Assembly (NCBI RefSeq): GCF_000876655.1
Contig: NZ_JYCN01000015.1
Location: 1 to 64,000, forward strand
Reading direction: 5' to 3'
Length of the DNA: 64,000 nucleotides
Source: Arthrobacter sp. SPG23
GTDB taxonomy: Bacteria > Actinomycetota > Actinomycetes > Actinomycetales > Micrococcaceae
The translations under genes were made by a program, and so were the position numbers. Below are positions 59,063-63,577 of the stretch, piece after piece (the first letter of the stretch is position 1; every line of letters begins with the position of its first letter). The notes beneath the pieces are model-generated. The model did not search any database, was not told the origin of the DNA, and saw nothing but the letters and a program-made list of their open reading frames with translations.

Positions 59063-59106
59063 AAGCCCGGCCACAACGAACCGACGGTGACGGCCGTCCT
59101 TTAATC

Positions 59107-59122
59107 CTCCACTTTGCACCAC
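59107..59122 (-). promoter_or_regulatory. Inverted MraZ-box pair, distal
   Basis: Read on the minus strand: GTGGTG-CAAA-GTGGAG, two half-sites with a 10-bp period, the same spacing as the direct boxes at the mraZ promoter. Confidence 0.55.
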
Positions 59123-59144
59123 CTGCCCCTGGCAGGCCTGCAGG

Positions 59145-59168: not shown

Positions 59169-59271
59169 GCATTTAAACCCCCCATTCACGGGCGCGACAC
59201 CGGCGGCGGCCGGGCGGCCCGCCGTCGTACTTCCCCTGGGCGCCCGTGCGCGCCACCCGACGCTGAAATCC

Positions 59272-59287
59272 CTCCACTTTCCACCAC
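59272..59287 (-). promoter_or_regulatory. Inverted MraZ-box pair, proximal
   Basis: Read on the minus strand: GTGGTG-GAAA-GTGGAG, again 10-bp period; 14 of 16 bases or more shared with the distal inverted pair. Confidence 0.55.
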
Positions 59288-59353
59288 CGGCCGTTAACCC
59301 CGGAATTACGGGGAAGGATTCCTCCAATCCAAGGACGAATCTTCCGTGTCGCG

Positions 59354-59381
59354 TTGACTGTGGAGCGATGTGGAGTAAAGT
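59354..59381 (+). promoter_or_regulatory. mraZ promoter
   Basis: TTGACT (59354-59359) and TAAAGT (59376-59381) with a 16-nt spacer. The three GTGGAG boxes fall in and just after the spacer, so bound MraZ would block RNA polymerase. Confidence 0.65.
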
Positions 59382-59385
59382 GGAG
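59360..59385 (+). promoter_or_regulatory. Three direct MraZ boxes
   Basis: GTGGAG repeats at 59360, 59370 and 59380 with exact 10-bp spacing. MraZ proteins bind short G-rich direct repeats with 10-bp period upstream of their own genes, so autoregulation is expected. Confidence 0.75.
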
Positions 59386-59449
59386 CAGGTAAGAGGGTAG
59401 TGGCAGCACAGGGGACGTGCAGCTCCTGACGACAGACAGGCGGGTGGCC

Positions 59450-59878
59450 ATGTTTCTTGGCACTCATTCGCCGCGTTTGGACGAAAAGGGGCGGATCATC
59501 CTCCCAGCGAAGTTCCGCGAGGAACTTGCCAGCGGACTGGTACTCACAAGAGGCCAGGAACGCTGCATCTACGTCTTCAGTGAGCGGGAATTCGAACGGA
59601 TTCACGAGCAAATGCGGGAGGCGCCCATCTCCTCCAAGCAGACTCGTGACTACATCCGGGTTTTTCTCTCTGGAGCCTCGGACGAGGTACCTGACAAGCA
59701 GGGGCGCGTGACTATTCCTCCCGCGCTCCGGGCATATGCAGGTCTTGGCAGGGAGCTTGCCGTTATCGGCGCCGGCTCCCGCGCGGAGATCTGGGATGCC
59801 CAGGCCTGGAACGAGTACCTGGCTGAGAAGGAAACCTCCTTCTCAGAAACCGACGACGCCATCCCGGGAATCTTCTGA
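59450..59878 (+). CDS. mraZ: Transcriptional regulator MraZ
   Basis: 142 aa. Two AbrB-like SpoVT repeats: [24 protein letters not shown] (about 1-24) and [23 protein letters not shown] (about 76-98), each with the DxKGR(I/V)x(L/I)P motif. It is the repressor that heads the division and wall (dcw) cluster. The ATG at 59450 gives the family's standard N-terminus; an upstream in-frame TG start would add 11 residues. Boxes with 10-bp period lie just upstream. The gap to rsmH contains a large RNA structure. Confidence 0.95.
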
Positions 59879-59899
59879 GGCCCGGAGGCGGCAACGGAA

Positions 59900-60012
59900 G
59901 CGCTTCTTGAACGAGATCTCCAGCCGCCCATCCGAACGTTGTCCTGGCTCACTTCCCCGGAGCCAGGCTGACGCCCGGATAGGCGCGGATGGGGATCTGG
60001 CTTAAGAAGCGC
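59900..60012 (+). ncRNA. Long stem-loop in the mraZ-rsmH leader (mraW-RNA-like candidate)
   Basis: 59900-59950 pairs with 59960-60012 around a 9-nt loop. In one register 44 of 51 positions pair (four as G-U), with only seven mismatched positions and a 2-nt bulge (59981-59982). Helix parts: 11 bp at the base (from GCGCTTCTT/AAGAAGCGC), 9 bp AGATCTCCA/TGGGGATCT, then CCGC/GCGG, ATCCG/CGGAT, CGTT/GACG, and an 8-bp CCTGGCTC/GAGCCAGG hairpin. It starts 21 nt after the mraZ stop and ends 54 nt before rsmH. A structured RNA named the mraW motif is reported upstream of this gene in some actinobacteria; a match was not tested. Confidence 0.6.
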
Positions 60013-60066
60013 ACCAAGGACCACCGAGGCCCGCAACGGCGAACATAGGCACGAAAGGACGAAGGT

Positions 60067-61065
60067 ATGAGCGATCCCAACCAGCCAAAACCCACGTCCG
60101 AACGCCATGTGCCGGTCCTCAAGGACCGGTGCATCAATTTGTTGGCCCCGGGAATCGAAGCGGCCCGCAAGCGGGGCGAGACGCCCGTGGTCATCGACGC
60201 AACACTGGGAATGGGCGGCCACTCCGAAGCCCTGCTCCAGCGCTTTCCGGACCTCCACCTGATCGGGATCGACCGCGACGAAGAAGCGCTGGCCCTCGCC
60301 GGGGAGCGGCTTAGGCCCTTCGCGGACCGCACCGACCTGGTCCACGCTGTTTACGACGAGATCCCGGACGTTCTCCGGGATCTTGGCGTTACGGAAGTCC
60401 ACGGGGTCCTCATGGACCTGGGGGTCTCCTCCCTCCAGCTGGACGAACGCGAACGCGGCTTTGCCTACTCCTTTGATGCACCCCTGGACATGCGCATGGA
60501 CACCGGCCGCGGCCAGACTGCCGCGGACGTGGTGAACAACTACAGCGAAGAGGACCTTGTCCGCATCATCCGCAAGTGGGGTGAGGAGAAGTTCGCCGGC
60601 AGGATCGCAAACCGCATCGTGGCTGCACGTGAGTCGAAGCCGTTCACCACCACTGGCGAACTGGTTGACACCATCCGGGCCGTGGTTCCGGCCGGCGCGG
60701 CAAAGACCGGGGGGCACCCGGCCAAACGGACCTTCCAGGCCCTGCGGATCGAAGTCAACGAAGAACTTGATGTCCTGGAACGGGCTGTGCCGGCCGCGGT
60801 GGACGCACTCGCCATGGGAGGCCGCGTGGTGGTGATGTCCTACCACTCGCTGGAGGACAAGATCGTCAAGAAGGTTTTCCAAGCCGGCTCCAAGTCCTCA
60901 GCGCCGTTGGGGTTCCCGGTGGAACTGGAAGAACACAAGCCTGAGCTCAAGACCCTGACCAAGGGCACCGAGGTGCCCACCGCCGATGAAGTCGCCGAAA
61001 ACCCGCGCGCAGCGTCCGCCCGTTTGCGGGCAGTTGAACGAATCAAAGCCAGGAGGGCCGCATGA
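60067..61065 (+). CDS. rsmH: 16S rRNA m4C1402 methyltransferase RsmH
   Basis: 332 aa. It N4-methylates C1402 of 16S rRNA. The N-terminus [13 protein letters not shown] and SAM-binding [16 protein letters not shown] (about 40-55) plus [17 protein letters not shown] and [11 protein letters not shown] are signature blocks. AAAGGA lies 9-10 nt upstream of the ATG. It overlaps ftsL by 4 nt (ATGA). Located as in other dcw clusters. Confidence 0.96.
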
Positions 61066-61730
61066 GCACCGCCGCTGCTAAGAACTTCCCAGTCGTGTCC
61101 GGCACGGCGGCCCGTGCCCTCACGGGGATCAAGCCTTCCGGAGGATCCGAACGGAAACTGCGGACCCCGCTGTCCGTGGTCCGGTCCACTCCGCGCAAGC
61201 GCAGGGCACCCTTCGTGGTGCTCTGCTTCGCGCTGCTGGCCGTGGCGCTGATGGCGGTCCTGGTGCTCAATATCTCCGTGTCAACAGCGCAGTACCAGCT
61301 GGTGCAGCTCCGCAGTGAGCAGTCCACGCTGACAAAGCAGAACCAGGACCTGACACAGCAGGTCCAGAACTTCGACGCTCCCCAGAACCTGGCTGCCAAG
61401 GCCACTGAATTGGGCATGGTGGCTTCCACCGGCAAGGGCCAGATCGATCTGTCCACGTTGACTGTCAGCGGCAGTCCGAAGCCCGCAGTGAAGGGAGACA
61501 AGCCCGGAGCCATCATCGCTGCGCCGGCTGTCGCCGGTCAGCTCACGGTGGTTCCGCCCGCTACTACCAAGGACCCGTTGGCCGCCCGTAAGCCCGCAGA
61601 GGCAGCAGCCGCCCCTGCGGCAGCAGCTCCCGCCCCTGCCGCTGCGGCCCCGGCAGCTGCCCCGAAGCCGGGTGTTGATCTCCACGGCGGATCCGTGCCG
61701 GCGCCGAAGCAAAAAACGCCGGGACAGTAA
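61062..61730 (+). CDS. ftsL: FtsL-like division protein
   Basis: 222 aa bitopic membrane protein. A cytoplasmic N-terminus of about 48 residues precedes one membrane segment (about 49-72, [22 protein letters not shown]) and a leucine/glutamine-rich coiled coil (about 80-112, [25 protein letters not shown]), the FtsL/DivIC layout. The rest is an Ala/Pro-rich extracytoplasmic tail ending in PKQKTPGQ. It forms the FtsQLB complex that activates septal wall synthesis. Sequence conservation is low in this family, so position between rsmH and ftsI is the main support. Confidence 0.88.
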
Positions 61731-61774: not shown

Positions 61775-63577
61775 GTGGCGAAGAGCACCGGCAAGAAAAC
61801 AACCGCAAAAGTGCCCAACGCCACCAGACGGCTCCGCCTCGGCCTGGGCATGATGCTGGCGTTGCTGCTTGTTGTCGGCGGCAAGCTGTTCATGGTCCAA
61901 GGGCTGGATATCGGCGGAATGGCCGAGGCCGCACTGAACAACCGCCTCACCCCGATTGAGCTCCCTGCCGAGCGCGGCAGCATCCTGGACGCCAACGGAA
62001 CAGTCCTCGCCAACAGTGTCATCCGCTACAACGTGGTGGTGGATCAGCGCGTCAACACCAAGACCGAGTCATTCAAGCGCCTGGACACCGTCGGCGGGAA
62101 GGACGAGCTCGTCACCGTGTCCAGGGACAAAGGCATCCAGGAGTTGGCTGCGGTGCTGGGGCAGGACCCGGCAGACGTCAAGGACGCACTGACGGGGGAG
62201 AAGCCCTACTACATCGTGGCGAAGGACCTTAAGCCCGACATGGAGGACCGGATCTCCAAGCTGCAGATTCCGGGAATCGTCACCGTCGGCACCAGCAAGC
62301 GCGTCTACCCCAACGGCGCCGTAGCCGGCGGCATCATCGGGTTCCTGCAGGACGGGACAACCGGCCAGGCGGGGCTGGAGCAGACACAGGATGACGTACT
62401 CAAGGGAACGCCCGGCAAGAGGCTCTTCGAGATCGGAGCCGACGGCCTGCGCATCCCGGTTGGCGTGGATGAACTGACGCCCGCCGTCGACGGCAAGGAC
62501 ATCCGCCTCACCCTCAACTCGGACCTGCAGTACTTTGCCCAGCAGGCCATCCAGAACCAGTCGGACAAGCTGAGCGCCGAATGGGGCGTCATCATTGTCC
62601 AGGACATCAAGACCGGCAACATCATCGCCATGGCAGACACCAACGCCCCGGACCCCAACGACCCCGGCAAGGTGGCCGCCAAGGACCGCGGCGTTCGTTC
62701 CGTGACAGCCGCCTACGAGCCGGGTTCCGTGGAAAAGATGATCACCGCCGCGTCCGTCATCGAAGAAGGCAAGTCCAGCCCGTTGGATCATTTCACCATC
62801 CCGCCGTCCCTCGTCGTGGACGGCCAGGTCTTCACGGACTCATTCGACCACGGGACCGAAGAACGGACCCTGGCCGGCATCCTGGGCTGGTCCATGAATA
62901 CCGGAACTGTCATGGCCGGCCAGCGACTCACCAAGGAACAACGCCACGACTGGCTGCAGAAGTTCGGGATCGGCGAAGCACCCGACATCGGTCTTCCCGC
63001 CGAAGCGAGCGGCATCCTCACGCCGGCTGACCAATGGGACGGCCGGCAGGAGTACACCGTGCTGTTCGGTCAGGGCGTTTCGCAATCCACCCTGCAGACC
63101 GTCCGCGCCTACCAGTCGATTGCCAACGACGGGGTGATGCTTCAGCCGCGCCTGATCGACAGCTACATCAGCCCGGACGGAACCGAGGAGAAGGTCCCGG
63201 CGAAGGAAAGCCGGCAGATCGTGTCAAAGGAAACGGCCAAGCAGGTGCGGGACATCCTGGAGAGCGCAGTGACCGAAGGCCAGATCAAGGATGCGGCCAT
63301 TGACGGTTACCGCGTCGGCGCCAAGACGGGAACCTCCGAATCACCGTGCGATGACGGTAAATCCGGGTACTGCGGCTACACGGCCTCCATGGTGGGGATG
63401 GCGCCGATGGACAATCCGCGGTTTATTGTTGAAGTTGTCCTGCAGCGTCCCAAAGGCAGTATCTATGGAATCACCAATGGTCCGGTGTTCCGCTCCGTGA
63501 TGAGCCAGACCCTGCGGACATACAATGTCCCGCCATCAACGGGCGAGCCGGTCAGGCTGCCCCAATACGTCAAGTAG
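61775..63577 (+). CDS. ftsI: Septal penicillin-binding protein (FtsI/PbpB)
   Basis: 600 aa. One N-terminal membrane segment (about 19-40) and a PBP dimerisation region (ELPAERGSILDANGTVLA, about 63-80) precede the transpeptidase domain. Active-site motifs: SxxK as GSVEKM (Ser about 318), SxN as SMNTGT (about 372) and KTG as GAKTGTSE (about 515). It cross-links septal peptidoglycan. GTG 61775 lacks a strong ribosome site but gives a basic N-terminus normal for the family. A Cys pair (SPCDDGKSGYCGY) near the KTG motif may form a disulfide. Confidence 0.95.
   Translation: MAKSTGKKTTAKVPNATRRLRLGLGMMLALLLVVGGKLFMVQGLDIGGMAEAALNNRLTPIELPAERGSILDANGTVLANSVIRYNVVVDQRVNTKTESFKRLDTVGGKDELVTVSRDKGIQELAAVLGQDPADVKDALTGEKPYYIVAKDLKPDMEDRISKLQIPGIVTVGTSKRVYPNGAVAGGIIGFLQDGTTGQAGLEQTQDDVLKGTPGKRLFEIGADGLRIPVGVDELTPAVDGKDIRLTLNSDLQYFAQQAIQNQSDKLSAEWGVIIVQDIKTGNIIAMADTNAPDPNDPGKVAAKDRGVRSVTAAYEPGSVEKMITAASVIEEGKSSPLDHFTIPPSLVVDGQVFTDSFDHGTEERTLAGILGWSMNTGTVMAGQRLTKEQRHDWLQKFGIGEAPDIGLPAEASGILTPADQWDGRQEYTVLFGQGVSQSTLQTVRAYQSIANDGVMLQPRLIDSYISPDGTEEKVPAKESRQIVSKETAKQVRDILESAVTEGQIKDAAIDGYRVGAKTGTSESPCDDGKSGYCGYTASMVGMAPMDNPRFIVEVVLQRPKGSIYGITNGPVFRSVMSQTLRTYNVPPSTGEPVRLPQYVK

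Follow-up and report, generated by a model that had tools for sequence, protein, structure and literature searches.

What is a very long, almost palindromic stem-loop doing between mraZ and rsmH in the division operon of Arthrobacter sp. SPG23, and which of the two genes does it serve? The stem-loop had been noticed in a 64,000-nt stretch of this genome (the window) in a preliminary description made from the letters alone. That description proposed that it may be the mraW RNA motif, or a processing or attenuation element separating the output of mraZ from that of rsmH. We followed up these proposals by folding, by covariance searches and by comparison with relatives.

A single-copy hairpin between mraZ and rsmH

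According to the list of open reading frames, a gap of 188 nt separates the mraZ stop (59878) from the rsmH start (60067). The features of the locus are:

59450-59878, + strand: mraZ (open reading frame; TIGR00242 above cut-off at 59450-59860)
59900-60012, + strand: predicted mraW RNA element, the entire hairpin, 46 predicted pairs (fold, RF01746 and genus-held-out model)
60067-61065, + strand: rsmH, also called mraW (open reading frame), followed by an ftsL-like frame at 61062-61730 and an ftsI-like frame at 61775-63577

The names rsmH, ftsL and ftsI are carried over from the preliminary description and agree with position; they are presumably right. A homologue of the window's rsmH protein was found in 19 of 21, 10 of 10 and 30 of 30 genomes in three genome sets.

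The minimum-energy fold of 59900-60012 has 46 predicted pairs and an energy of -73.0 kcal/mol. No such value was reached by 5112 stretches of 113 nt taken from both strands of the window at a step of 25, a comparison slightly biased toward the hairpin, which is exactly placed while the 5112 others lie on a grid. With its flanks (59880-60030) the hairpin folds at -84.6, while dinucleotide shuffles average -56.5 (sd 4.2; z -6.7) and 0 of 200 were as low. The shuffles and the window-wide control rule out a chance fold, as the preliminary description had supposed in calling the structure beyond chance. Its coordinates, gap size and anatomy for 59900-60012 also hold: the 44 of 51 paired positions that it counted are within two pairs of the 46-pair fold, in which the 11-bp base, the 9-bp helix and the 8-bp apical helix were each found again.

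A repeat search of 59300-60300 reported the outer arms of the hairpin as the sole inverted repeat. The hairpin occurs in a single copy in its own genome, where the other 27 matches are 14-28 nt long with E of at least 0.6, and on this ground a mobile palindrome or mobile repeat was rejected. That so long a near-palindrome should be a mobile element or a chance inverted repeat has, in our estimate, a vanishingly small probability, given the single genome copy and the same placement and covariation across the class that are described below.

Identity as the mraW RNA

An Rfam scan of the window at gathering thresholds returned only 5S rRNA and tRNA. The 6C RNA of actinobacteria, whose C-rich hairpin loops give it a likeness to mraW RNA, was not among these hits. 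A permissive scan of 59300-60300 gave RF01746 (mraW) at 59907-60009, covering model positions 1-107 of 107, with E 3.2e-9. The score of 49.5 bits is 0.5 bit below the gathering score of 50. Within the window's family, RF01746 matched at E 0.01 in 141 of 149 genomes, 70 above the cut-off and 71 below it, and three of eight genomes of the same genus (G009, G063 and G086; the window's own genome is included in the eight) were above. Because 141 of the 149 family genomes match and yet only 70 pass, the shortfall of the window copy looks like a matter of threshold.

A new covariance model was built from 30 members of the family, none of them from the window's own genus, and found the element at 59895-60022 on the + strand with 97.8 bits (E 3.5e-27). 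On the - strand it scored 44.7 bits, as expected for a near-palindrome. The features of RF01746 are present at the locus, namely the position upstream of rsmH (mraW), between mraZ and rsmH, and the conserved ACUUCCCC apical loop at 59951-59958. The outer stem and the occurrence in actinobacteria are further points of likeness.

Judged by sequence, the hairpin is thus almost certainly the mraW RNA of the Arthrobacter sp. SPG23 genome, and the first proposal of the preliminary description is borne out by the full-length match. The window copy is an ordinary member of a known RNA, and the useful part of this work is comparative. The mraW RNA is one of 104 candidate structured RNAs published in 2010, its range being given as Actinomycetales in the accessible text (Weinberg et al. 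2010, PMC2864571), and an accessible passage of a later paper states that its function remains unknown (PMC5640933). No function is given in the accessible parts of the literature that is found under its name or as RF01746. The mraW RNA literature found by name, mostly open-access and consulted in excerpts, likewise holds no mention of a basal helix, twin loops, a strand test or persistence in genomes that have no mraZ.

Covariation and strand

Covariation was measured in two sets of relatives. The first was a plain MAFFT alignment of 53 family members with an RNAalifold structure from which one isolated pair was dropped. Twelve loci with a wrongly picked CTTCCC or false hits were left out of it, as were L018, L025, L026, L028, L029, L032, L035, L037 and L038, whose genera were already present. 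In this set 95.1% of cells were paired and 19 of 25 pairs had changes on both sides. None of 500 shuffles, which ignore relatedness, reached any of five measures, and sliding the partner by one column lowered pairing to 53%. The compensatory changes whose absence from related genomes the preliminary description had named as evidence against its structure are therefore present. Among eight members of the window's genus, whose sequences are close, both-side changes were seen in only 5 of 38 predicted pairs.

The second set held 79 distinct rows from 80 named loci of Corynebacterium, mycobacteria-type and related species. Here 96.9% of cells were paired (best of 300 shuffles, which again ignore relatedness, 90.0) and 165 cells had both-side changes (best shuffle 59). 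Both-side changes fell in 15 of 25 pairs, a count that the best of the 300 shuffles also reached.

The imperfect pairs bear on the strand. In the 53 rows there were 69 G-U and 29 A-C cells, one nearly always wobble pair being excluded. The G-U share was 0.70 against 0.57 in shuffled columns, with 0 of 1000 as high, and taken pair by pair G-U was ahead in 10 of 24, A-C in 4, with a tie in 10. In the second set 232 G-U stood against 17 A-C, 71 of these G-U belonging to one fixed pair. From the excess of G-U over A-C we conclude that the hairpin acts as RNA, in the sense orientation of mraZ and rsmH.

Four layers of the hairpin

The alignments and the fold divide the hairpin into four predicted layers that differ in constraint: a basal helix, an internal module, a middle stem and an apical loop.

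59900-59910, + strand: basal helix, 5' arm; predicted pairs with 60002-60012; unpaired in the Rfam model
60002-60012, + strand: basal helix, 3' arm (fold and covariation)
59914-59922 with 59990-59998, + strand: 9-bp helix (fold)
59914-59927, + strand: internal module, 5' strand AGAUCUCCAGCCGC, with U59919 of the U.G pair and G59923 opposite A59989
59985-59998, + strand: internal module, 3' strand GCGGAUGGGGAUCU, including G59993
59928-59941, + strand: middle stem, 5' strand (alignment and fold), variable in sequence and length
59969-59983, + strand: middle stem, 3' strand (alignment and fold)
59943-59967, + strand: apical hairpin CCUGGCUC-ACUUCCCCG-GAGCCAGG, with an 8-bp helix of 59943-59950 and 59960-59967
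59952-59958, + strand: CUUCCCC loop, invariant in the 53 alignment rows

The basal helix is free in sequence and covaries: its nine family pairs (alignment columns 26-34, which are 59904-59912 with 60000-60008) all changed on both sides. The stem of the window copy is about 11 pairs longer than that of RF01746. Because these basal positions covary in the family and yet stand unpaired in the Rfam structure line, we regard the RF01746 model as too short.

The internal module is largely fixed. Two of its pairs are invariant in the 53 rows, and in each of the five that follow no more than 7 of 53 rows show a change, while the outer pairs 59914-59998 and 59916-59996 do vary. The U59919.G59993 wobble was kept in 51 of 53 rows, and a U.G is found in the corresponding helix in 71 of the 79 rows of the second set.

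The CUUCCCC loop and its doubling

The DNA form of the loop, CTTCCCC, was present in 291 of 307 counted gaps, at least twice in 41 of them, against an expectation of 0.024 per gap under mononucleotide shuffling; because the genome samples of the family, class, phylum, f9 and named-locus searches overlap and are partly hand-picked, the 307 gaps are not independent and give no rate for the class. They derive from 319 gaps that were read, from which L179-L190, 12 f24 genomes retrieved through their mraZ, were excluded. L001-L008, L078, L101, L102, L138, L221-L229, L255, L256, L262 and L263 had been removed before the count. Presence of CTTCCCC in a gap is no proof of a loop, as in L129 of genus g60, where the copy lies away from the stem. 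The 16 gaps that lack CTTCCCC belong to six genomes of genus g3 and ten of g60.

A second copy of the loop takes two forms, and some relatives differ in this from the RF01746 description. In the first, a second hairpin stands on the same base stem (L111, L112 and L115 of genus g4; L117 and L126). In the second, found in family f24, the copy lies 21-27 nt downstream, where the 3' sequence either stays unpaired or folds into a short hairpin. Three g4 genomes, G133 and G148 with no Rfam match and G082 with a weak one, proved to be of the twin-loop kind, and the new model scored them at 66-74 bits. Twin loops were also observed in L121, L127, L264 and most of the f24 loci that were read, some of them with a weak Rfam match or none.

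No binding partner for CUUCCCC was found. Complementarity of the loop averaged 7.74 of 9 with the mraZ 5' leader against 7.45 for shuffled sequence (114 loci) and 6.25 of 9 with the rsmH leader against 6.21 (257 loci), little or no excess in either case, and pairing of the loop with the mraZ or rsmH leader was dropped as unconvincing on these near-shuffled values. The same values count against the reading that the apical hairpin is cut out, in the manner of UpsM, and works in trans as a small RNA that pairs through CUUCCCC with GGGGAAG-type ribosome sites elsewhere. A conserved and repeated loop would suit such an RNA, and a small RNA from a dcw leader is known from another phylum, according to the accessible text of PMC5089854; we nevertheless consider it improbable.

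Distribution and loss

In the class, 175 of 246 genomes matched RF01746 at E 0.01, 65 of them above the cut-off, and in family f9 all 61 genomes searched matched at E 0.01. A phylum-wide draw of 198 genomes gave 11 matches at E 0.001, all but one from the window's class. The match lay between mraZ and rsmH in all 122 RF01746 loci that were checked, 121 of them by script; the remaining one (L252) was settled by its listed match at contig positions 1114-1215, between two gene hits. Of the 80 loci of the second set, 76 have the start of the predicted hairpin beyond the mraZ stop. The control, Thermus composti, gave a match at E 0.01 in the family, class and f9 searches and none at E 0.001 in the phylum-wide search.

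Several single hits were set aside. L262 (G504, outside the class, 28.4 bits) was taken as a chance match, and at the weak second RF01746 hits L101 and L102 no mraZ or rsmH was found. In genus g308, weak RF01746 hits at L255 (2050-2130) and L256 (about 2003-2039) fall on a hairpin with a CCUUCCCCG loop directly after the stop of an open frame. These g308 hairpins, which follow a stop codon and have a loop like that of the element, are more likely look-alikes; they may be terminators or may have converged on the loop independently, and they were not accepted as mraW RNA. On the 3.6 kb contig of G287, a second, partial RF01746 hit (L263, about 366-407, - strand, 34.1 bits) has a strong stem and a CACCUUCCCCGG loop. 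In L078 (G035) the element and rsmH each occur twice on a single contig, with an N run in between and 76% identity of the rsmH stretches over 292 nt, which is probably a case of mis-scaffolding or a divergent duplicate.

In genus g3, six of eight genomes have neighbouring mraZ and rsmH with no RF01746 match and no CTTCCC in the gap, and the new model found 0 of 6. These genomes (L109, L110, L113, L114, L116 and L120) have a gap of only about 58-75 nt in four cases; the other two g3 genomes gave weak RF01746 matches. Because the element is missing from these six genomes and the loop has decayed in 11 of 12 genomes of g60 (see below), we read the element as dispensable in some lineages.

Genomes that have no mraZ

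Family f24 and its genus g60, both of which we take to be Streptomyces-like, allow the element to be followed where mraZ is gone. TIGR00242 (mraZ) was found in 33 of 81 f24 genomes, in 10 of 17 genera, and was missing in 48 of 81. We read 42 f24 rsmH loci, 18 with mraZ and 24 that lack it. All 18 loci with mraZ have CTTCCCC between mraZ and rsmH. In 12 of 12 mraZ-less loci from g136, g137, g143, g144, g147 and g148 the motif lies at most 420 nt before rsmH, with at least two copies in 11. When eight of these 12 were folded, CUUCCCC stood in an apical loop in seven; the eighth, L201, for which a longer stretch was folded, did otherwise.

In the mraZ-less g60 the loop has decayed in 11 of 12 genomes. 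Only L119 has CTTCCCC in a stem, and the base stem is kept in several. The loci L118 and L128-L137 form an apparent decay series, with mraZ lost, the base stem still there in several and the loop decayed. The decay of the loop in g60 had suggested MraZ itself as the reader of the loop, an idea that was dropped when g136, g137, g143, g144, g147 and g148 were found to keep the motif in the absence of mraZ.

Loss of mraZ, it appears, need not remove the element from its place before rsmH, though it can also decay in that setting. Because it is kept before rsmH in mraZ-less f24 genomes, we think it likely that it serves rsmH downstream rather than mraZ. The proposal that the element separates the output of mraZ from that of rsmH is weakened by this persistence as an account of its sole role.

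Transcription through the hairpin

One promoter-like site was found in 59200-60120:

59354-59381, + strand: likely promoter of the mraZ-rsmH operon, TTGACT, 16 nt, TAAAGT

Three GTGGAG repeats with 10-nt spacing (59360, 59370 and 59380) overlap its hexamers, and similar ones stand before mraZ of relatives; those at 59354-59385 resemble MraZ boxes. Further upstream of mraZ, 59106-59123 and 59271-59288 carry near-identical copies of CCTCCACTTTSCACCACC, the reverse complement of the same GTGG-type repeat, and these may be distal sites of the same regulator.

No second promoter was found in 59200-60120, nor any terminator-like site, and no U run follows the stem; rsmH is therefore probably transcribed from the mraZ promoter, through the hairpin. 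So strong a hairpin between genes of the same operon might be expected to act as a transcription attenuator or terminator, and attenuation was also suggested in the preliminary description. That part of its proposal is not supported: the mark of an intrinsic terminator or attenuator, a G+C-rich stem with a U run behind it, was found 0 times in 59200-60120, and a terminator was rejected on this ground. Termination needs no fixed loop or module, and an attenuator would starve rsmH, because no second promoter is seen. We regard attenuation as very unlikely.

A published 5' end falls inside the motif in a relative. In Corynebacterium glutamicum, the accessible text of PMC3890552 gives a 5' end of mraW at 2,266,932, inside the motif (2,267,021-2,266,916, minus strand) and in its 3' arm, and its authors interpret it as a transcription start. 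The end lies 16 nt from the motif end, which we infer to be model position 91 and, barring an indel, G59993 of the window. A small-RNA study of the same species lists the mraW motif at cg2377 among mRNA leaders (PMC4046766, accessible part), and in C. diphtheriae the motif lies upstream of a mapped start (PMC5784534, accessible part).

The C. glutamicum and C. diphtheriae libraries were, by the available descriptions, treated for primary (triphosphate) ends (PMC3890552, PMC5784534). The authors call the 5' end a start because their libraries enriched such ends, and the libraries speak for a start site rather than a cut. The 3' arm may then be a second transcription start for rsmH, in C. glutamicum at this place and in C. 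diphtheriae downstream of the motif, and the stem the DNA or RNA context of its promoter. Before the corresponding place, TANNNT was found in none of 79 relatives of one set and in 1 of 53 of the other, C. glutamicum not being among the rows. The single promoter-like site of 59200-60120 lies upstream of mraZ, and the excess of G-U over A-C is unexpected for a DNA element. A second start is in our judgement an unlikely account of the hairpin.

A possible processing site

The long helix with a fixed module at the position of the 5' end could be a site for a double-strand-specific RNase. A feature of RNase III substrates, a near-continuous helix of at least about two turns, is present in the predicted 46-pair fold. 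In C. glutamicum, according to the accessible account, RNase III cuts the mraZ mRNA in the mraZ coding region and not in this gap (Maeda 2016).

In the mechanism that we propose, the mraW RNA would be a cis-acting element in the leader of rsmH-ftsL-ftsI, transcribed from the mraZ promoter. A double-strand-specific endonuclease of the RNase III type would cut the internal module. The rsmH mRNA would thereby gain a 5' end of its own, and its level would no longer be tied to that of mraZ. Either the cutting or the translation of rsmH would be gated by a trans-acting factor that recognizes the CUUCCCC loop. On the features named, processing of the RNase III type at the module is a tentative proposal that we rate somewhat short of evenly balanced. 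The identity as mraW RNA and the processing mechanism, taken jointly, we rate just short of it.

The main rival to processing is binding without cutting, in which a protein (possibly RsmH, or another RNA-binding protein) sits on the module and the loop and sets rsmH translation or mRNA decay with no cleavage. Two sequence-fixed parts within an otherwise freely covarying structure fit a bound protein, as do the 41 of 307 gaps with at least two copies of CTTCCCC and the retention of the element with rsmH in f24. The rsmH start, however, is 54 nt past the hairpin, the likely ribosome site lies outside the stem, and the distance from hairpin to rsmH varies widely in relatives. We consider binding of this kind rather unlikely, and continue with processing as the preferred reading.

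Discussion

Two described systems invite comparison with processing of the mraW RNA. UpsM of Rhodobacter sphaeroides lies before mraZ, arises by way of a Rho-independent terminator and is processed by RNase E, according to the accessible text (PMC5089854). Like the mraW RNA, it is described there as a structured leader RNA of a division operon whose first gene is mraZ. The mraW RNA, in contrast, lies after mraZ and has no terminator that we could find. The cleavage of mraZ mRNA in C. glutamicum (Maeda 2016), as far as its accessible account goes, shares with our proposal the RNase III, the operon and the actinobacterial host. It differs in place, the cut being in the mraZ coding region whereas the predicted hairpin follows the mraZ stop in 76 of the 80 loci of the second set.

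Compared with the RF01746 description, what is new here is the covarying basal helix, the largely fixed module with a U.G near the published 5' end, the frequency and doubling of the loop, and the persistence of the element in f24 genomes that lack mraZ. For annotation, the Rfam cut-off misses many copies, 71 of the 141 matching family genomes, and the RF01746 model lacks the basal helix.

At its widest, our reading would make the mraW RNA a two-part processing switch, consisting of a fixed cut module with a near-obligatory U.G and of one or two CUUCCCC loops read by a class-wide factor. Such a switch would set the rsmH-ftsL-ftsI mRNA independently of mraZ. It would have been doubled in its loop in several lineages, would have disappeared from some members of one genus in the window's family, and would be decaying in one large mraZ-less genus. 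In this full form the reading is possible and, on balance, doubtful. If true, it predicts a cut at the U.G module, a CUUCCCC-binding factor, and an effect on rsmH and not on mraZ. One conserved RNA would then control the division operon in a class that includes Corynebacterium, mycobacteria-type species and what we take to be a Streptomyces-like family.
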